Virus record (IMG/VR): IMGVR_UViG_3300032893_000111
Coordinates: 1 to 43,255 of that record
Source of the DNA: a virus
DNA length: 43,255 nt
Strand: one strand, 5' to 3'
This document shows, piece by piece, positions 3,293-37,618 of the stretch. The notes under the pieces were generated by a model. The model had not been told where the DNA came from, searched no databases, and was given only the letters and a program-made list of their open reading frames with translations. The position numbers and the translations under genes were made by a program. Position 1 is the first letter of the stretch, and each line of letters starts with the position of its first letter.

Positions 3293-5512
3293 TCAGCTCG
3301 CCGTTACGACCACGGTCTCGCCCACCTGGAGCGAGAGCACGATGACACGCGCGCTCGGCAGCGTCTTGATCGCCTGCGCGAAGATGAAGGTGCCGGCGTC
3401 CGTGAGCGCCTGCGTCTGCTGGCTCTTCGCGTCGATGCTGTACGCGCTGATTCGCTGGTTGCTCGGGTTCGACTCCGAGAGCAGCCCCGCGAGGAACGCG
3501 TTCAGCGTGCCGAGGATGTCCGTGCGGAGCTGCTGCGTCGCGACCTTCTTGACGAAGGGCTTGATCCCGACCGCCTCGCTGTCCGCGATGTAGTCGAGCA
3601 TCTTCAGGCGCGCGATCGTCGTGAGCCCCGACTCCGTGTTCATCGTCACGCCGTCGTCGAACTGCGGGCCGACCGTGTCGTCGACCACCGGCGGCGCGAT
3701 GCCCGCGGCCTCGAGCGTCGCGTAGCTCGAGATGTCGAGGTCCGTCGGAACGTCCTCGACCGCGAAGAAGGGCGTCAGGAGGTCGGTCGCCTGGCCGGGG
3801 TTCGTCTCCGGCTGGAGGCACGCCATCACCGTCGCCATCGTCATGTCCGCGGGCACGGTGATGATGCCCGAGTCGGTGAAGCCGGCGCCCCCATTGAGCG
3901 CGCCCGTCTCCGCGATCTCCGGCACCTGCACCTGCCAGCCCGGGTAGGTGAAGATGCCGCGCCCGTTCTCCGGGTCCGGGTACTGATCCCGGTCCGTGAG
4001 CGCCTGCGCCTGCGAGAGCCCGAGGAACGCCGCGACGACCGGCTTGCGGCCTGCGAGCCCGCCCGACGTCGCCGTGATCGCGTTCGCGAGCACGTCGGCG
4101 CGGTGCGTGTTGGACGTGCGCGCCGAGACGGAGATGTTGGCCTTCTTCGCCTTCCCCTTCGGGGAGAGCGTCGCGTTCAGCGCCGCGAGGTAGGCCGCGT
4201 CCATCTGCGGCTCCGTCAGCGCCGCGGTCAGCGCGTTCGCGTTCGTGACCTCGACCTCGAAGTTCGTCGGCTGGTCCGTGACCGTCGTCACCGTGCCCGA
4301 GCTCGCGCCGACCGCCGTGCCGTCGTCGAGCGCCGGACGCACCTTCACGACGTGCGGGCCCGGGTTCGGCGAGTCGGCCGTGCCCTCGGCGATCGTGAGG
4401 GTCTGCATCGTGACCCACGTCGTGGTCCCGTCGGTGACGCGCGTGCCGGCGGGGATCGTGTCCGCCGCGTGCACGCCCGCGTCGACCTGCGTGTCGAGCG
4501 GCGAGAAGCCGATCGTGGTGCCCATCGCGGTCGTGTTGACCTTGATGTGCCCCGTGCCGCCGACGGTCGAGTAGACGCGCAGGAGCCCGTCCGAGCCGAC
4601 GCGCGCCTTCGCGTTGATCGAGCCGAGGCCGGCCGTGCCGTTGATGATCGTCGCGACCTCGGCCGCAGTGACCGCGTCGACGTTCGCCACGCTGCCCGTG
4701 CCGTTCGTCGTCGCCGCCGTGAGCCCGATCGCGGCGAGCGTGCCGGCTGTGACGTTCGCCAGCGTGATCGCGCCCCCGGTGCCCTTCTGCTGCCCGACGA
4801 GCACGAGGTGCGCGCCCGAGTCGCTCGCGCACGAGTAGCCCACCGCCGCGTTGATCGCCGCCGCCACCTGCGCGCGCGTCGAGTCGGACGACGAGAAGAC
4901 GACGTTGATCGTCGCGCCGCCGTCGATGGTGATCGCCATCGTCTCGCCGCCGACGAAACCCGACGTGCTGAAGCCGGAGCCCGTCACCGTCGCGACGACC
5001 GCCGTGATCGCCGTGGACGACGCCGGGCCGCCGGTCTCCGTCGTGATCGACACCTGGCCGCCGACGGTGAGCGCGAACGGGCCGGCCCCGCCGAGGATGA
5101 CCGCGAGCGGCGAGAAGGTCACCTGCCCGACCGACGTGTCCACGCGCGCGAAGATGAAGCCCTGCGCCTGCGCGTACTTCGCCTTCAGGAAGCCGTTGCC
5201 GTTCCAGAGCTGCGAGAGGTGCCGGCGCGCGCACGGGTTCTGGTGCTTCAGCGAGCCGTACGTGAACCCGAGCCCGCCGAACGCCGCGAGCTGGTTCCCC
5301 GGCGTCACGTCCGCGGGCCCGGTGCCGTAGATCGGATCGTACTCGACGGCGTCTCCGCCTGCCGCGAACGGCCCGTCCTCGAACTCGCCCGTGAGCAGCA
5401 CGTAGCCGGTGGGCGCGCCCAAGATCGGCGAGGGCGGCGCCACGTCGCGGATGTAGATCCCCGGGACGTTGTAGAAGGGGAGCGGCGAAGTGCCGCGCTG
5501 CACGAAGGTCAC
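3293..5512 (-). CDS. Tail sheath protein with inserted repeat domains
   Basis: A 739-residue protein starting at the GTG that overlaps the HNH gene stop by 4 nt (GTGA). The N-terminus (VPGIYIRDVAPPSPILGAP, GYVLLTGEFEDGP) and the C-terminus (GIKPFVKKVATQQLRTDILG and the following helix, then a strand QVGETVVV) match contractile tail sheaths. The sheath contracts to drive the tube through the host envelope. Between about residues 140 and 420 there is an insertion rich in small residues with at least two related units. One of them (GGETMAITIDGG about 188-199, then DSTRAQVAAAINAA and LAAIGLTA) resembles a domain in the protein encoded at 14104-14826. The insertion makes the protein much longer than a minimal sheath and probably forms the outer surface decoration. 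Confidence 0.88.
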   Translation of the reverse strand: MTFVQRGTSPLPFYNVPGIYIRDVAPPSPILGAPTGYVLLTGEFEDGPFAAGGDAVEYDPIYGTGPADVTPGNQLAAFGGLGFTYGSLKHQNPCARRHLSQLWNGNGFLKAKYAQAQGFIFARVDTSVGQVTFSPLAVILGGAGPFALTVGGQVSITTETGGPASSTAITAVVATVTGSGFSTSGFVGGETMAITIDGGATINVVFSSSDSTRAQVAAAINAAVGYSCASDSGAHLVLVGQQKGTGGAITLANVTAGTLAAIGLTAATTNGTGSVANVDAVTAAEVATIINGTAGLGSINAKARVGSDGLLRVYSTVGGTGHIKVNTTAMGTTIGFSPLDTQVDAGVHAADTIPAGTRVTDGTTTWVTMQTLTIAEGTADSPNPGPHVVKVRPALDDGTAVGASSGTVTTVTDQPTNFEVEVTNANALTAALTEPQMDAAYLAALNATLSPKGKAKKANISVSARTSNTHRADVLANAITATSGGLAGRKPVVAAFLGLSQAQALTDRDQYPDPENGRGIFTYPGWQVQVPEIAETGALNGGAGFTDSGIITVPADMTMATVMACLQPETNPGQATDLLTPFFAVEDVPTDLDISSYATLEAAGIAPPVVDDTVGPQFDDGVTMNTESGLTTIARLKMLDYIADSEAVGIKPFVKKVATQQLRTDILGTLNAFLAGLLSESNPSNQRISAYSIDAKSQQTQALTDAGTFIFAQAIKTLPSARVIVLSLQVGETVVVTAS

Positions 5513-6225
5513 GGGTTCGTCTCCTCGGTTGAGGGAGTAGTAGCACGGACCGCACGCGGAACGCGACCCCACTCCTCTGGCGTCTTCGTGTTCTTCCGCG
5601 AGTTGCACGAACGGCAAGCCGGCACGACGTTCGACGGCGCGTGCTCCCCGTTGCGAGAGAGCGGCACCACGTGATCCATGGTCATCCGGCCGCCGGCGCC
5701 ACAGTAAGCGCAATGGTGGCCGAACGCGGCGAGGATCGCCCTCCACTCTTCGGCCGTCACGCCGCGGCCGCTCGCTCGCTTCGAGGCGCGCCGCTTCGCC
5801 TCCCGCAACATGTGCCCGCTGCAATCCAGACACGTGACGCGGTAACCATCTTTCGTCGGAGAGGACGGCGTTGCCTTCCGCGCAGGCTTCAGCTCGTTGC
5901 ACTTCCGGCAGATGCGCCACGCCATGCCGTCACGCATCACGATGGGCGATCGCTTCGCAGCTCGCGCGGCCACGGCCAGCACTTGCGCGACCAACGCCGA
6001 CGCCGACTGTGCCGGCGTGGGCGGAACGCCTCGGCGGGCTTCCACGCGCGCAGCAACCACCTCGGGCCGCTGCGCGCGTCCACGGAGCACCCCCTGATGC
6101 GAAGCCGACATCTTCGCGCGCGTTTCGGGCGACGCCTTCCGCCCACGCATGATGTCGCTCAGCAGCTTCCGCTGCTCCGTCGACATCGGCCCTCGCGGAA
6201 CACCCTTCGGCCAGGGCTTACCCAC
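5509..6225 (-). CDS. HNH endonuclease with NUMOD-type DNA-binding motifs (homing type)
   Basis: A 238-residue protein from a GTG at 6225, overlapping the upstream gene by 8 nt and the sheath gene by 4 nt. The N-terminal part has a NUMOD3-like helix (SPETRAKMSASHQG) and a Cys pair zinc motif (CRKCNELKPA, then CLDC). The C-terminal part is a classic HNH domain: CAYCG, then TMDHVVPLS, then ACRSCNSRK. Free-standing HNH genes of this build are homing endonucleases that spread by cutting alleles lacking them. It is wedged between a tail-terminator-like gene and the sheath without disturbing the overlaps, so it is well integrated into the operon. Confidence 0.88.
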   Translation of the reverse strand: MGKPWPKGVPRGPMSTEQRKLLSDIMRGRKASPETRAKMSASHQGVLRGRAQRPEVVAARVEARRGVPPTPAQSASALVAQVLAVAARAAKRSPIVMRDGMAWRICRKCNELKPARKATPSSPTKDGYRVTCLDCSGHMLREAKRRASKRASGRGVTAEEWRAILAAFGHHCAYCGAGGRMTMDHVVPLSRNGEHAPSNVVPACRSCNSRKNTKTPEEWGRVPRAVRATTPSTEETNP

Positions 6226-8306: not shown

Positions 8307-8752
8307 GAGTTGATGACCGGGACGTTGAAGCCGCCGCCCATCGCCCCCGCGAAGCCGAAGCTCGCGACCTCGCCGTACGGGTTGATCGGGCACGCCATCA
8401 TGTCGGCGAGCTGGCGCTGCCACCGGATGAACTCGCCGGTCAGCATCGACAGCTCGTCCTGGTTCAGCTTGATCTCGCCGATCGACGACGCGCGGATGCG
8501 CGACCGCGCCGTCGCCATCTGCGCGAGGATCGCGTCGAGCTGACACACGATCTGGAGCACGATCGCGCCGCCCTCCGGCAAGATGCGATCGAAGTTCGTC
8601 TCGAGGAGGTAGAGCGCGTTGCTGAGCTGCGGGATCCCGAGCGCCATCGACGACGACATCTGAGAAACGGACGGGTAGCCCAAGAGATAGCGGATCTTCG
8701 CGCGCTGCTCGAGTGTGAAGACGGCCTTCGGCGGATTCTGTGCGTCGCTCAC
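8303..8752 (-). CDS. Unknown helical protein in the connector region
   Basis: A 149-residue protein with a GTG start overlapping the HNH gene stop (GTGA). It is largely helical (FTLEQRAKIRYLLGY, SNALYLLETNFDRILPEGGA, IVLQIVCQLDAILAQMATAR), which suits a head-tail adaptor, but there is no motif to confirm this. The C-terminus is Gly-rich and hydrophobic (GFAGAMGGGFNVP). Confidence 0.6.
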   Translation of the reverse strand: MSDAQNPPKAVFTLEQRAKIRYLLGYPSVSQMSSSMALGIPQLSNALYLLETNFDRILPEGGAIVLQIVCQLDAILAQMATARSRIRASSIGEIKLNQDELSMLTGEFIRWQRQLADMMACPINPYGEVASFGFAGAMGGGFNVPVINS

Positions 8753-9210
8753 TCCGTAAGTGTGCGCCACGTGTGCCGCTGGATCAACAGCGTGATGGTT
8801 CCGTGAACCACACCAAAGCGTCGCGCCAGAGATGCGCCGCGCTCGCCATCTCTGTGCGCCCGCCGGATCTCGATCACCTGCTGTTTCGTCAGTCGCGGGT
8901 AACCGTGGTGCCGGTTCTTCCGCACCATGTCGCGCATGTTGTCCTCGTGCGTGCCCAGGAACAGATGGTCGGGGTTCACGCACGCCGGTTGATCGCAGCG
9001 GTGCAAAACGAACAGGCCGTCCGGGATCGGCCCGATGAACACCTCGTACGAGACGCGGTGCGCCGGTCGTTTCTTCCCGTCTACGGTCATTCGACCATAC
9101 CCACCGGAACGGTGAGTTTGCCGCGTCCAAAGCCAGCAGCCCGTGTTCGGTTCGGGCTCACCGTACGCTTCGATCCGGGCCGCCAATCCGCGCAAACGAT
9201 GTAGAATCAT
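8749..9210 (-). CDS. HNH homing-type endonuclease
   Basis: A 153-residue protein from the ATG at 9210, with a perfect AGGAGGT Shine-Dalgarno upstream. It has the HNH_3-type core: NTGCWLWTRQTHRSGGYGRM, then AHRVSYEVFIGPIPDG, then VLHRCDQPACVNPDHLFLGT, followed by ENMRDMVRK. The C-terminus carries a helix-turn-helix-like module (LTKQQVIEIRRAHRDGERGA, then RFGVVHGTITLLIQR) that probably binds DNA. The layout is the same as the larger HNH gene at 10197-10883. It is inserted in the connector gene block. Confidence 0.9.
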   Translation of the reverse strand: MILHRLRGLAARIEAYGEPEPNTGCWLWTRQTHRSGGYGRMTVDGKKRPAHRVSYEVFIGPIPDGLFVLHRCDQPACVNPDHLFLGTHEDNMRDMVRKNRHHGYPRLTKQQVIEIRRAHRDGERGASLARRFGVVHGTITLLIQRHTWRTLTE

Positions 9211-10196: not shown

Positions 10197-10883
10197 TCAC
10201 GCGACGTGCTTCCAGAAGCGCCGATGGATGATGGCGTTCACGTTCGTCCGGCTGATCCCGAACCGCACAGCCAGATCGCACTGGCGTTCGCCGCGCGCGG
10301 CGGCGGCGCGCATCTCGCGCACCTGATCTTCGGTGAGCTTCGATCTGGCGGTGGCACTGCCGCGCGGCCGACGAGCATCGACGTCGATCGTCGTCGTGAT
10401 CGGTCCGCCAGCGCGCTTCCAGAAGTGCCCTTGCACGGCTCGCCCAACGGTTCTCAGCGCCACACCGAATCGGTTCGCGCAGGTTCGCAGCGACGCGCCG
10501 GCCGCATACATCTCGCGCATCTCGACCACCTGCGCATCAGTCAGCACGCGCGTCAGCGGGATCATCCCGCGGTTCCCGGCCCGGCCCTTCTCGGCCATGT
10601 CCGCCATGTTCTCGGCGTGCGTGCCGCTGCGGAGGTGCGCCGGATTGATGCAGGCCGGTACATCGCAGAGATGCAGGATCTCGTGCCCGGTCGGGATCGG
10701 CCCGATCGCCAGCTCGTGCGCCACGCGATGCGCACGACCGAGCGTCGAGTAGCCGTAGCCCGACGGATGTCGGCTTCCGGTCCAGATCCAGCACGGAGTG
10801 CCGAGCGTCGGGTGTGGCGGCCCGCTCCTATCCGTGCGTGCCCAGAACCGCTCGATCGCTTCTTCGCGTGCTAGCTTCCGCAT
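10197..10883 (-). CDS. HNH homing-type endonuclease with two C-terminal HTH repeats
   Basis: A 228-residue protein. I place the start at the ATG at 10883, which has GAGGAG upstream, rather than at an earlier in-frame start. The HNH core reads TPCWIWTGSRHPSGYGYSTL, AHRVAHELAIGPIPTG, LHLCDVPACINPAHLRSGTH, ENMADMAEKGR. Two similar helix-turn-helix-like units follow (LTDAQVVEMREMYAAGASL..., and LTEDQVREMRAAAARGERQ...), each ending in a W-K/R motif. These probably recognise the target site. It is inserted immediately after the major capsid gene. Confidence 0.9.
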   Translation of the reverse strand: MRKLAREEAIERFWARTDRSGPPHPTLGTPCWIWTGSRHPSGYGYSTLGRAHRVAHELAIGPIPTGHEILHLCDVPACINPAHLRSGTHAENMADMAEKGRAGNRGMIPLTRVLTDAQVVEMREMYAAGASLRTCANRFGVALRTVGRAVQGHFWKRAGGPITTTIDVDARRPRGSATARSKLTEDQVREMRAAAARGERQCDLAVRFGISRTNVNAIIHRRFWKHVA

Positions 10884-15178: not shown

Positions 15179-15375
15179 GGCTCGCCGACGTGCGATCGCG
15201 CGTGGTCGAGGAAGAAGTTCTCCGCGCGCGCCGTGAGCCTCGTCCCGTACACCTGCCATCGGCCGTGCCCTCGTTCGGACTGCAGCTTCGCCATGCACTT
15301 CTCGCACGAGACCCAGCCGTCGGAACCGACCTTGAACCCGAGCGCCTCGAGCTTCTTTGCGTCGTCCTTCGTCAT
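15175..15375 (-). CDS. Small C2H2-like zinc-finger protein
   Basis: A 66-residue protein from an ATG overlapping the methyltransferase stop (ATGA) and itself overlapped by the methyltransferase remnant (GTGA). Cys24 and Cys27 (SCEKC) and His58 and His62 (DHARSH) could bind one zinc ion. The spacer is longer than in classical zinc fingers. It may bind DNA or accompany the methyltransferase. No family is recognised. Confidence 0.6.
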   Translation of the reverse strand: MTKDDAKKLEALGFKVGSDGWVSCEKCMAKLQSERGHGRWQVYGTRLTARAENFFLDHARSHVGEP

Positions 15376-16004
15376 GCCCACTCGATCGACACGGAGCACG
15401 TCGTGCCCTTCGGCGTACCCCCGCGCGCGATCTCCATGAAGAGGAAGTCCGTCGCCGGCGACGTGTCCTTCGCACCGACGAAACGCGGCCGCGCGGAGAG
15501 CACGCGCACGCGCGTGGGGTGGGCGACCGACGTCCACAGCCGATGCCGGCTCTGACCCGGATCCTTCTCGTTCTTCCCGAAGAACACCGAGACCGGCAGG
15601 ATCATGCAGACGCGCGGCGTCCAGGCCAGCGCGCGCTCGATGAACTCGAGCATCAGCGAGAAGGGCGGGTTGCCGACGGTGACCTCGGGCAGGAGCCCGG
15701 GAGTGTAGAGCGCCCGCTCCACGGCCGGACGAAGCTCGCTGACGAGGAAGTCTCCGCACGCGAAGCCTCCGCGCTCCGCCCACTCCGGATCGAGCTCGAA
15801 CGCCAGCACGCCACGCGCACCCTGCGCGCGCAGCTCGCGCACGAGCTGTCCGGTCCCCGCGCTCGGCTCGAGCACGACCTGCCCGTCGATGTGGCACCAC
15901 GCGACGAACTCCGCCGCGAGCCAGTCCGGGGTCATCCACAGATCGTTCGGGTTCGCCACCGTGCGCGCCGTGTCGATGCCCGGAAGCCCCTGTTGCTCGT
16001 TCAT
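15372..16004 (-). CDS. N6-adenine-type DNA methyltransferase-like protein
   Basis: A 210-residue protein from the ATG at 16004, coupled on both sides by 4-nt overlaps. Motif I is visible at about residues 45-54 (LEPSAGTGQL), and the catalytic motif IV at 111-115 (GNPPF). The segment LWMTPDWLAAEFVAW upstream of motif I resembles the start of phage-type adenine methyltransferases. The enzyme would transfer a methyl group from S-adenosylmethionine to DNA, probably N6 of adenine, which can protect phage DNA from host restriction or mark it for other uses. It is small and no target-recognition domain is obvious. No restriction partner is seen nearby, so it looks solitary. Confidence 0.85.
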   Translation of the reverse strand: MNEQQGLPGIDTARTVANPNDLWMTPDWLAAEFVAWCHIDGQVVLEPSAGTGQLVRELRAQGARGVLAFELDPEWAERGGFACGDFLVSELRPAVERALYTPGLLPEVTVGNPPFSLMLEFIERALAWTPRVCMILPVSVFFGKNEKDPGQSRHRLWTSVAHPTRVRVLSARPRFVGAKDTSPATDFLFMEIARGGTPKGTTCSVSIEWA

Positions 16005-17660: not shown

Positions 17661-17909
17661 TCACCCGAACTTGGCGCGGATCCCCGCCTCGATCCAGCCG
17701 TCGGCCAGCCGCAGATCGAGCGGGGCGACGTCGAGCAGCCGCGCCGCGCGCGCGAGCTGCGTTGCGTGCGCGAGCGCCGTGCGCGCGTCAGACAGGTACC
17801 CCTTCGCGCTCGGCAGCTCCGGAGCGATCGCCGCCCAGCGGTAGAGCAGGCGCGCCTCGATCAGCCACGCCTCGAGGAGGACCATCAGCGCCTCGTCGCG
17901 CGGGCTCAT
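17661..17909 (-). CDS. 82-residue helical unknown protein
   Basis: An ATG start overlapping the upstream stop (ATGA). The product is Leu/Ala-rich (DEALMVLLEAWLIEARLLYR, ARTALAHATQLARAARLLDV), probably a helical bundle. No family is recognised. Confidence 0.6.
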   Translation of the reverse strand: MSPRDEALMVLLEAWLIEARLLYRWAAIAPELPSAKGYLSDARTALAHATQLARAARLLDVAPLDLRLADGWIEAGIRAKFG

Positions 17910-18349
17910 CGGCGCCGCTCCAGCGCATCGCGCATCGCGCCGCCGGCCTCCGCGTGCCCACCAAGGGGTTGCGGCTCGCACTCGCGACAGAGGTAGTAGT
18001 CGTCGCGACCCATGTCGTGCGCGGTCGCGTCGTCGCGGTGCGGGCGCGCGCTGCACCCCTCGCACGCGACGCGGTCGAGGCAGTCGCGCGCGTCGCAGTC
18101 GGGGCCGCACGCATCGGGCGGAGTCGCGTCGCACGTGTGCACGTGCCGCAGCCCTTCGCGATCTTCCGATTCGGTGCACCACCCCGTACAAGCGCGGCAC
18201 GAAGGATCGCGCCCTTCCGCTTGCGCGCGGAGCTGCGCCGCCTGCCTTGCCTTACACGCGGGGCACCGCAGCTCCGGCGACTCCGCCGGAAGCACGCGGC
18301 CGCACCTGTCGATGCACGGCCGATAGAACGTCTTGATCGTGCGACTCAT
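17906..18349 (-). CDS. Cys-rich multi-zinc protein
   Basis: A 147-residue protein from the ATG at 18349, the first gene of the leftward unit after the divergent intergenic region. It has 15 cysteines, many in pairs: C29/C32 (CPAC), C51/C54 (CRAC), C58, C73, C81/C85, C90, C96/C99 (CEGC), C121/C124 (CREC). This could bind several zinc ions and resembles no named family I can identify. It may be a DNA- or RNA-binding factor or an adaptor. Being first in the transcript next to a repeat-rich intergenic region, it is a candidate regulator. Confidence 0.65.
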   Translation of the reverse strand: MSRTIKTFYRPCIDRCGRVLPAESPELRCPACKARQAAQLRAQAEGRDPSCRACTGWCTESEDREGLRHVHTCDATPPDACGPDCDARDCLDRVACEGCSARPHRDDATAHDMGRDDYYLCRECEPQPLGGHAEAGGAMRDALERRR

Positions 18350-18556
18350 GCTCGGCTCTATTGCGAGCGCCGTGCCAGCGTCGAGCGCGCGTAAGTCGTT
18401 GATCCGTCGTCGCGCCGGGCCCCGATCGTAACGCTCGAGCGTAACAGTCGGTGTTACGGTGTGACGCTTCCCGTTACGGTGTTACGCCCGCAGCGCGGCT
18501 AAGTGCTTGATCCGTCGTCGCCGCGCGCTGGCACGTCGGCTGCACTAGACGGGGGC
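18350..18556. promoter_or_regulatory. Divergent intergenic region with direct repeats and GTAAC/GTTAC boxes
   Basis: A 207-bp gap between the leftward gene at 18349 and the rightward gene at 18557. Two 21-bp direct repeats (TAAGTCGTTGATCCGTCGTCG at 18392-18412 and TAAGTGCTTGATCCGTCGTC plus G at 18500-18520, differing at two positions) lie 108 bp apart and flank a dense set of boxes. These are GTAAC at 18428-18432 and 18441-18445, and GTTAC at 18453-18457, 18473-18477 and 18481-18485, plus a near match GTGAC at 18461-18465. A 6-bp inverted pair GTAACA/TGTTAC with a 5-nt spacer lies at 18441-18457. Two 15-bp units (18453-18467 and 18473-18487) differ at one base and are 20 bp apart. This looks like an operator or iteron array. 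No clear -10/-35 pair is assigned. Confidence 0.7.
18392..18520. repeat. Paired 21-bp direct repeats flanking the box array
   Basis: The two copies share the 14-mer TTGATCCGTCGTCG exactly. Their placement at the two ends of the GTAAC/GTTAC cluster suggests that each marks one promoter or one edge of an operator or origin. Confidence 0.65.
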
Positions 18557-18883
18557 ATGCAAACGACGCAACGCACCGGGCGCCCGCTGAAGTTCGTGGG
18601 CGACGTCTGTCTATACGGAACGCCCGCGATCGGGTTCCACTACCTCGCACGCGCGAGCGCGACCGGGCCCTTGATCGAAGGCGGGCTCCGTGACCGCGAA
18701 GGGCACGGCGGCACCTTCGGAACTACGACGGAAGCGATCTGGCACGCGTGCGATGCGATCCGCGCCGCCGGCACGACGCGCGGCGCAATCGTGATCCACG
18801 CGCCTGGCGGCACGATGCATGCCGTTACCTTCCTGCATGCGCACGTGCCGAATGCGGGCTCGCTCGAATGGGTTTCGACATGA
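18557..18883 (+). CDS. Unknown 108-residue protein, first gene of the plus-strand island
   Basis: ATG at 18557. The product is compact with a mixture of strands and helices (KFVGDVCLYGTPAIGFHYLA, TTTEAIWHACDAIRAAGTTR, AIVIHAPGGTMHAVTFLHA). It ends in an ATGA overlap with the next gene. No family is recognised. It is the only transcript group on the plus strand, directly following the repeat-rich region, so it may be an early or regulatory gene. Confidence 0.6.
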   Translation: MQTTQRTGRPLKFVGDVCLYGTPAIGFHYLARASATGPLIEGGLRDREGHGGTFGTTTEAIWHACDAIRAAGTTRGAIVIHAPGGTMHAVTFLHAHVPNAGSLEWVST

Positions 18884-19266
18884 CGCGCGAGGAAGCGGCG
18901 ACGCTGTACCGTCGCGAGCGCGGGGTCGCGTGCTACTCGCTTTCGTGCACGCCTGAGACGTTCGACACCGCGTGCGCCGCCGAGGTACTCCGCGGCGAGA
19001 AGCACAACGACGCGCTCGCGCGACACCTCGCGTGGATCGCGGCGCTCGACACCGTGCGCATCGATTGCCCGAGGTGCCACGGCACAGGCGTCTACGCCCG
19101 TTCGTGGGTTCACGAGCTGGGCTGCGGCATGCGGCCGCAAGGCGAGACCGGCACCTGCTACCGATGCGAGGGGAAGGGCTTTCAGGTGCGCGCCGACTGG
19201 CATCGGAACGCCAAGCGCGACGAGCACGCGATCGCGGAAGCGTTCCGCGCGATGATGGGAGTGTAA
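18880..19266 (+). CDS. Protein with DnaJ-type CxxCxGxG zinc motifs
   Basis: A 128-residue protein from the ATG at 18880, coupled by ATGA to the gene before it. Two CxxCxGxG motifs at about 63-70 (CPRCHGTG) and 93-100 (CYRCEGKG) match the zinc-binding repeats of DnaJ, which hold two zinc ions or recognise unfolded or RNA partners. There is no J domain, so this is an isolated zinc module. Such modules also occur in small RNA-binding and anti-termination-like proteins. An alternative start 12 nt upstream cannot be excluded. Confidence 0.7.
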   Translation: MTREEAATLYRRERGVACYSLSCTPETFDTACAAEVLRGEKHNDALARHLAWIAALDTVRIDCPRCHGTGVYARSWVHELGCGMRPQGETGTCYRCEGKGFQVRADWHRNAKRDEHAIAEAFRAMMGV

Positions 19267-19270
19267 GGCG

Positions 19271-19540
19271 ATGATCTCTTCAGTTCTGGATCACGCGGAA
19301 GGCAGGTTGATCGAGCCCTACTCGATCAAGCGCTACCTCCGAAACCACGACGCGGATCAGCTCTGGATCGTCGACGTCGACGTCATCGGCGACCGCGTTA
19401 CGCGGTGGCAGTTTCTCGTGCACGCCACGACTGCCGATGACGCCACGCGCGCATCGCTGACGCGTCTCCAGCATGTTCACGGAGGCGATTGGAGATTCGA
19501 TCCGATCGAGTGTCACCCTGCGAAGGCCGCGCGTGCCTAG
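19271..19540 (+). CDS. Unknown 89-residue protein
   Basis: ATG at 19271 with AAGG a few bases upstream. Contains YSIKRYLRNHDADQLWIVDV, DVIGDRVTRWQFLVHATTAD and RASLTRLQHVHGGDWRFD, an alpha/beta mixture. No family is recognised. Third member of the plus-strand island. Confidence 0.55.
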   Translation: MISSVLDHAEGRLIEPYSIKRYLRNHDADQLWIVDVDVIGDRVTRWQFLVHATTADDATRASLTRLQHVHGGDWRFDPIECHPAKAARA

Positions 19541-19541
19541 G

Positions 19542-19739
19542 ATGCGCTTCGTGCGCGACCTCCGCGCTGGCGATCATGTCGTCGTCACTCACACGGGCGA
19601 CGTCACAACGATCGTCGCCGTGCACCGCGTCGACGGCGCGCCGTTCTACGAAACGGCGCTCGCGGGCGATGAGCGGTATCAGTGCGCCGGAACGCTAGAA
19701 GCGCTCCGCGTCGAGCGCGTAAGGCTCGGGCGCGACTAG
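19542..19739 (+). CDS. Small SH3-like beta-barrel protein
   Basis: A 65-residue protein from the ATG at 19542, next to the stop of the previous gene. The pattern LRAGDHVVVTHTGDVTTIVA followed by HRVDGAPFYETALAGDERYQ is like small SH3/KOW-type barrels. Its stop shares the palindrome CTAG (19736-19739) with the stop of the convergent MuF-like gene, so the two genes end tail to tail with a 4-bp overlap. Confidence 0.55.
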   Translation: MRFVRDLRAGDHVVVTHTGDVTTIVAVHRVDGAPFYETALAGDERYQCAGTLEALRVERVRLGRD

Positions 19740-36504: not shown

Positions 36505-37028
36505 CACGTTCCTTTCCGCGGCCGGAGCGCGTGCCGCACCGTCGCGCTGCAGACGTCGAGCCGCTGCGTCTTGAGGAAGAGCCGACGAGGATCGCCGGCG
36601 TTCTCCACGTCCACGTCGTACTTCACCTTCACGAAGCCGGCGATCTCGCGCGCTGCTTCCTCGGGCTCCGAGCCCTCCACCCCGCGCACGAGCTCGTACG
36701 CGAAGAGCAGTCCGGCGAGCCTCTTCGCATTCGTGCCCTCGGCCGTGAGCACGGCCCCGAACCACGCGTTGAACGCCTTGAGCGCGGGGAGGTCGCCCTT
36801 CATCGTCTCGGTCGCGTTCCGGCGTCGCAGTTCGTAGAGCTCCGCGTCATCGCCGAGCGCGTCCGGCCGGTTGGGCATCTCCTCCGGCGCGAAGTCTCCG
36901 AGGTGCCGCGACACCTCGATCCCGGCGAGCACCCGGTCCGTCTTCTCGTCGCCCGTGACGCCGCCGATGGGCAACAGGAAGCTCTCGCTCACGCCGGACG
37001 GCGAGAAGAGGTCGCGCGTGCTCTTCAC
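36504..37028 (-). CDS. 174-residue unknown protein of the replication block
   Basis: GTG in a GTGA overlap with the replication protein gene. Contains SESFLLPIGGVTGDEKTDRV, then GDLPALKAFNAWFGAVLTAE and KRLAGLLFAYELVRGVEGSE. No family is recognised. Tight coupling with the initiator-like gene suggests a role in replication. Confidence 0.6.
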   Translation of the reverse strand: MKSTRDLFSPSGVSESFLLPIGGVTGDEKTDRVLAGIEVSRHLGDFAPEEMPNRPDALGDDAELYELRRRNATETMKGDLPALKAFNAWFGAVLTAEGTNAKRLAGLLFAYELVRGVEGSEPEEAAREIAGFVKVKYDVDVENAGDPRRLFLKTQRLDVCSATVRHALRPRKGT

Positions 37029-37618
37029 GTTGCCTTCGCTCCCGCGCGCAGCGCGCGCACCTGATCGGCCAGCCGGTTCGCGTCGGCGGTGCGCCCCTCG
37101 GACAGCGCGACGAGTTGCTCTTCCTCGAGCCGCGCGACGCGGTCCGCGTGCTCCTCCTGCGACACCGACCGGCTCACGCGCGCGCCCTCTGCCTTCTCGC
37201 GGAAGCGCTCCACGTTCGTGTCGTTGCGCAGGATCATCGTCAACTCTGTGTGGCCGCCCTCGGTGTGGAAGTCGGAAGTGCAGCACCCGAGGATGGCGCG
37301 GCAGACGTCCTCTTCCGAGTAGCGCCGGAGACGCGCGCGGATCGCCGTCTTCCGCTCGTCGGTCAGCGTCGCCTTCTTCTTCCCGGCGGCCTTCACCCAA
37401 TAGGCGAAGATCCGCTCGACCTTCTGCTCGAGCGCCACGTCCTTCGACGGCGCGCCCTGGATGCCAGGCAAGCTCGCCTGCGCCTCGCGCGTCGCCTCCA
37501 CGTCGGAGGCGAGCGCGCGAAGGCGCTCCGCCAGAGCGGACAGGCCGACCGTGCCGCTGTTCAGCTCCACGATCGCCTCGGCGAGCCGCCGGGTGATGTC
37601 CCGGCCGGTGAGCGCCAT
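37025..37618 (-). CDS. Phage replication initiation-like protein
   Basis: A 197-residue protein from the ATG at 37618, four bases after the SSB-like gene stop. The middle (VERIFAYWVKAAGKKKATLT, then DERKTAIRARLRRYSEEDVC and RAILGCCTSDFHTE, then ILRNDTNVERFREKA) resembles the conserved C-terminal domain of phage replisome organisers (DnaD/Phg_2220_C type). The N-terminal part is a helical oligomerisation-like region. It would bind the origin or help load a helicase. No helicase is visible in the window. Confidence 0.65.
   Translation of the reverse strand: MALTGRDITRRLAEAIVELNSGTVGLSALAERLRALASDVEATREAQASLPGIQGAPSKDVALEQKVERIFAYWVKAAGKKKATLTDERKTAIRARLRRYSEEDVCRAILGCCTSDFHTEGGHTELTMILRNDTNVERFREKAEGARVSRSVSQEEHADRVARLEEEQLVALSEGRTADANRLADQVRALRAGAKAT

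Follow-up and report, generated by a model that had tools for sequence, protein, structure and literature searches.

The described systems closest to the array analysed here are the replication origins of phages lambda and P22. In lambda, dimers of the O protein bind the iterons, and the iteron region constitutes the origin (PMC7466680, PMC3349717). The four annotated lambda iterons carry TCCCT/AGGGA-type arms at spacings of 12-8-12-12-12-11-12 bp (L138:1035-1119), and the rep_origin annotated in gene 18 of P22 possesses TTNAC/GTNAA-type arms at 12-8-12-12-12-11-12 bp (L155:1341-1485). The half-site lattice is identical in both origins, whereas the half-site letters differ (TCCCT versus TTNAC). 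In-gene iterons also differ between the different O proteins that bind them (PMC8022706).

GTNAC boxes are present in the O genes of phage Sf101 and Proteus phage vB_BPM-V3, in which they follow one another at 20, 12, 12, 12 and 11 bp and have a lambda-like ACACAAAAG flank. In vB_BPM-V3 the O gene is followed by a helicase gene, in Sf101 by a large unnamed ORF. The lattice is common to lambda, P22 and O-like genes; GTNAC arrays are therefore regarded as the same lattice with another half-site. It should be mentioned that a literature search found no paper on a GTNAC origin.

The box array between two divergent genes

The window, i.e. the whole stretch of DNA analysed, is a virus record of 43,255 bp with a GC content of 70%. 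It encodes tape-measure, head, portal and terminase proteins and represents a tailed phage; a contractile tail is a guess based on the size and position of a 739-aa gene (3293-5512), for which no PHROG match was obtained. Nearly all predicted genes are located on the minus strand, and an islet of four small ORFs on the plus strand (18557-19739). The recombination and replication genes of the window are those of RuvC, an AAA_24 ATPase and a PD-(D/E)XK nuclease. An HNH/endonuclease VII-type gene (5509-6186) sits among the structural genes, and the ORFs at 8749-9090 and 10197-10724 are HNH-like, as judged by eye only.

The gap at 18350-18556 (207 bp) extends exactly between the ATG of a minus-strand ORF (17906-18349) and the ATG of a plus-strand ORF (18557-18883), so that its placement between divergent genes in the original prediction holds. 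It is filled by six GTNAC boxes and two 21-bp repeats. The boxes, B1 to B6, form an array of 58 bp (18428-18485, no strand assigned) with successive spacings of 13, 12, 8, 12 and 8 bp; these are GTAAC at 18428 (B1) and 18441 (B2), GTTAC at 18453 (B3), GTGAC at 18461 (B4), and GTTAC at 18473 (B5) and 18481 (B6). Six GTAAC/GTTAC-like boxes had been predicted and six are present, one of them, however, being GTGAC. Box B1, 13 bp from B2, does not keep to the register. The 12-8-12 core, B2 to B5 (18441-18477, no strand assigned), is composed of two 17-bp inverted-repeat units with 3 bp between them, GTAAC-N7-GTTAC and then GTGAC-N7-GTTAC. The smaller elements described earlier are likewise found: the 6-bp inverted pair GTAACA/TGTTAC (18441-18446/18452-18457) and two 15-bp units (18453-18467 and 18473-18487), the starts of which lie 20 bp apart and which are identical at 14 of 15 positions.

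The two direct repeats, reported as identical at 19 of 21 positions, are confirmed as such. Both have the form TAAGT..TTGATCCGTCGTCG and bracket the array in the same (plus) orientation, R1 to its left (18392-18412) and R2 to its right (18500-18520), at a distance of 108 bp from each other. The whole window contains three pairs with at least 19 of 21 identical positions at distances of 21-130 bp, and the repeat pair alone is thus less exceptional than the box array. Among 123 arrays, flanking 21-bp repeats with at least 17 of 21 identities accompany only those of the window, L037 and L016; such repeats are no general feature of the arrays.

To the left of the gap, a Cys-rich ORF of 147 aa (17906-18349, minus strand) is the first of a leftward cluster of small genes. 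Neither PHROGs nor Pfam gave it a convincing family match, and no support was found for the suggestion that its product binds the boxes. The same cluster, starting at the array, includes a DNA methyltransferase-like gene (15372-16004; phrog_799, E 2e-22). To the right, the first islet gene (18557-18883, plus strand) encodes 108 aa with no family match in PHROGs and Pfam, and the second (18868-19266, plus strand) encodes 132 aa with CxxC zinc-type motifs and a weak DnaJ_CXXCXGXG match (E 0.0015, below the Pfam cut-off). The flanking genes had been announced as Cys-rich and zinc-motif genes; the former does adjoin the gap, whereas the latter is the second gene on the plus strand.

The same lattice in other viral loci

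The original prediction called for the box spacing to be followed in related phages. Queries with the portal, capsid and 132-aa proteins revealed no close relative of the window in IMG/VR, its capsid relatives being distant (28-33% identity), and the gap DNA showed nothing beyond one weak 27-bp match in named phages; the lattice, on the other hand, recurs in other viral loci. A loose pattern derived from the two 15-bp units was found at seven viral loci, most of them with arrays longer than the pattern required. The five-box lattice with alternating 8/12 spacing is present at 14 IMG/VR viral loci and eight loci in bacterial genomes. A composition control with the box letters reversed (CANTG) returned 0 viral loci. 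A spacing control (9/11) was not empty; it returned four viral loci, and dense GTNAC arrays with other spacings thus also exist. Dense arrays at 9/11 spacing occur in L151-L154, and L152 and L154 mix several spacings.

The four-box core (12-8-12) was identified in at least 119 viral stretches, of which, by estimate, some 20 could be chance matches. Boxes outside the core, not demanded by the search, lie among the matches listed at 12 bp (69), 24 bp (32), 8 bp (26) and 20 bp (17), and only 0-3 were counted at 9, 10, 11 and 13 bp among the same matches. In L024:3391-3499 and L020:6212-6384, runs of GTCAC with 7- or 8-bp steps give way to the 8/12 lattice. L006:844-916 contains four near-identical 20-bp units with GTTACGCCGTAAC; the gene beside them has, by eye, a Zot-like N-terminus, which suggests a filamentous phage.

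The loci counted in these searches include related phages, so that the counts are not independent. At 53 of 128 array loci, the array lies within a replication-initiator gene. These genes belong to three PHROGs families: O-like (phrog_2365), replication initiation (phrog_2447) and primosomal (phrog_4118). Profile comparison revealed no homology between the three (at most 24% probability), and where they align at all, the stretch includes Val-Thr repeats encoded by the boxes themselves. Of the 27 arrays in the O-like family, 22 follow 12-8-12-12-12 in the gene direction. Because a step of 8 bp does not preserve the reading frame and the boxes are also found in intergenic DNA, selection most likely acts on the DNA.

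Outside initiator genes, arrays adjoin a primase gene (L016), a VapE-type ATPase gene (L019/L027) and a helicase gene (L004), and can therefore still keep replication company. The intergenic arrays of L016 and L019/L027 resemble that of the window in having the 8/12 lattice outside a replication gene, and L016 also possesses comparable flanking direct repeats (17/21). In contrast to these loci, the window array adjoins neither a primase nor a VapE gene. Many intergenic arrays elsewhere are located near terminase or head genes and not near replication genes. In nine viral contigs (L038, L068, L082, L086, L093, L110, L115, L120 and L130) the array lies 0-22 bp from a conserved gene of about 400 aa, mostly just 3' of it; the predicted structure of the product is of modest confidence, and an RNA polymerase sigma-factor-like gene is found nearby in several of these contigs.

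The array as a probable replication origin

The window array is probably an iteron cluster that serves as a replication origin in the manner of lambda and P22; three defining features of that type were looked for and found lacking, and the array is therefore not classed as a member. The likeness concerns geometry. In lambda ori, inverted half-site pairs are 12 bp apart and adjacent units 8 bp (12-8-12); the same distances separate arms and neighbouring units at B2-B5, and lambda iterons 1-2 have the same geometry as the window core at 18441-18477. The features lacking are as follows: (i) at least four full iterons, lambda having four and the window two full 12-bp units plus the extra boxes B1 (13 bp) and B6 (8 bp); (ii) location inside an initiator gene, the window array being intergenic (gap 18350-18556); (iii) an AT-rich element adjoining the array, such as the 38-bp sequence beside lambda ori (PMC3349717), the window flanks having 58-76% GC in 50-bp steps and the lowest-GC stretch nearby lying about 0.8 kb away. 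The half-site also differs, TCCCT/AGGGA in lambda and GTNAC in the window. In P22, the half-sites TTNAC/GTNAA are one base from GTNAC, but the array is placed inside an O-like gene and that of the window outside. The arrays of Sf101 and vB_BPM-V3, unlike that of the window, are in-gene and belong to a full-length O protein. The checks on skew and unwinding proposed for origin activity did not turn out in its favour: beside the missing AT-rich unwinding element, there is no clear GC-skew switch at the array except for the plus-strand islet. The off-register box B1 and the intergenic arrays that elsewhere adjoin terminase or head genes likewise count against an origin. The choice originally offered was between an operator and an iteron array; the iteron half is supported by the lattice, which the array shares with lambda and P22 ori and with the 53 in-initiator arrays, whereas no support was found for the operator half.

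A protein of 197 aa (37025-37618, minus strand), the gene of which lies 18.5 kb from the array, matches the C-terminal domain of O-like/replication initiation proteins (initiator C-termini of phrog_16167, E 7e-11, and phrog_18020, E 5e-10). It also matches L126 and L099, initiators with GTNAC arrays in their own genes, and by these matches an array and an initiator domain are linked in one genome. The protein is a candidate for the helicase-recruiting half of an initiator. It has no recognisable DNA-binding domain, and the N-terminal DNA-binding part is missing; a low-depth structure model is all-helical and gave no PDB match. The DNA-binding part of an initiator was not found among the window proteins (profile-profile probability at most 3% for the three initiator families), and initiator-family profiles run against all window frames returned nothing at E below 1. 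In phages with matches to the 197-aa protein, namely IME285, Ab9, fEg-Aba01, VvAW1, PBR31 and KEN_04, the parts of each genome that were searched contain no GTNAC arrays.

In the proposed mechanism, each GTNAC-N7-GTNAC unit would be occupied by one dimer of a phage initiator. With 3 bp between them, adjacent dimers would assemble into a complex like the O-some, and a partner that recruits the replicative helicase would load it nearby. An initiator would thus bind the array, and replication would start there. A separate, so far unrecognised protein may provide the DNA-binding half, unless the contig is incomplete.

Other explanations and the meaning of the lattice

The main rival to the origin reading is a transcriptional operator, at which a phage DNA-binding protein would act cooperatively on the GTNAC lattice and repress or activate both divergent clusters. 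The array does occupy the intergenic space between two divergent gene starts, but known origins have the same lattice, and no regulator of such a kind was recognised in the window. A search covering sigma-70-type promoters alone found no such pattern in 18150-18800. Elsewhere, intergenic arrays occur in several phages, at nine loci an array directly follows the conserved gene of about 400 aa, and at eight loci the array is near a sigma-factor-like gene, which speaks for an operator. Initiators can also autoregulate, and this too is counted on its side. Taken together, an operator is possible but rather unlikely.

It is improbable that the array is a DNA-packaging site or a partition centromere, with the boxes bound by the terminase small subunit or a ParB/RHH-like protein. 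The window's terminase gene is about 9 kb from the array and no par genes were recognised in the window, although arrays elsewhere do lie near terminase or scaffold genes, e.g. in L092 (TerS), L097/L116 (scaffold), L102 and L016; moreover, the array shares its lattice with the ori of lambda and of P22, not with cos or pac.

Still less probable is that the boxes cluster by chance, or that they are the functionless remains of a decayed tandem repeat. The 43,255 bp of the window contain 116 GTNAC, six of them within 58 bp at the array, and in 300 simulated sequences no 61-bp stretch held more than four. The exact five-box lattice has a chance expectation of about 1e-8 and appeared in 0 of 100 shuffles; a box lattice of such density is not chance. 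The two 15-bp units resemble a 20-bp tandem duplication, and the pattern at some bacterial loci resembles plain tandem repeats, yet the lattice is kept across differing box sequences (GTAAC, GTTAC, GTGAC).

Binding of the array by a nucleoid protein of the host, of the EbfC/YbaB type, is hardly credible and the least probable of all. EbfC of Borrelia burgdorferi binds palindromic GTnAC, but YbaB of E. coli, H. influenzae and C. crescentus is reported to have no GTnAC preference (PMC8581549). The lattice, moreover, goes with phage initiator genes, and in lambda and P22 its spacing is preserved although the half-sites are others.

The reading of the array as a replication origin may be extended, tentatively and with the odds rather against it, to a widely shared origin code. 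The GTNAC 12/8 lattice would then serve initiator families without detectable homology, as well as some primase-helicase systems, with the same half-site and spacing; in the window it would act in trans, with the initiator split into a DNA-binding protein and the C-terminal helicase-recruiting protein 18.5 kb away. If the origin reading is right, the GTNAC rule of 12-8-12 bp would predict origins in many uncultured phages, also outside the initiator gene, and dimer packing on the DNA would explain the kept geometry and changing half-site letters across differing initiators. The array would, in that case, also point to split initiators.
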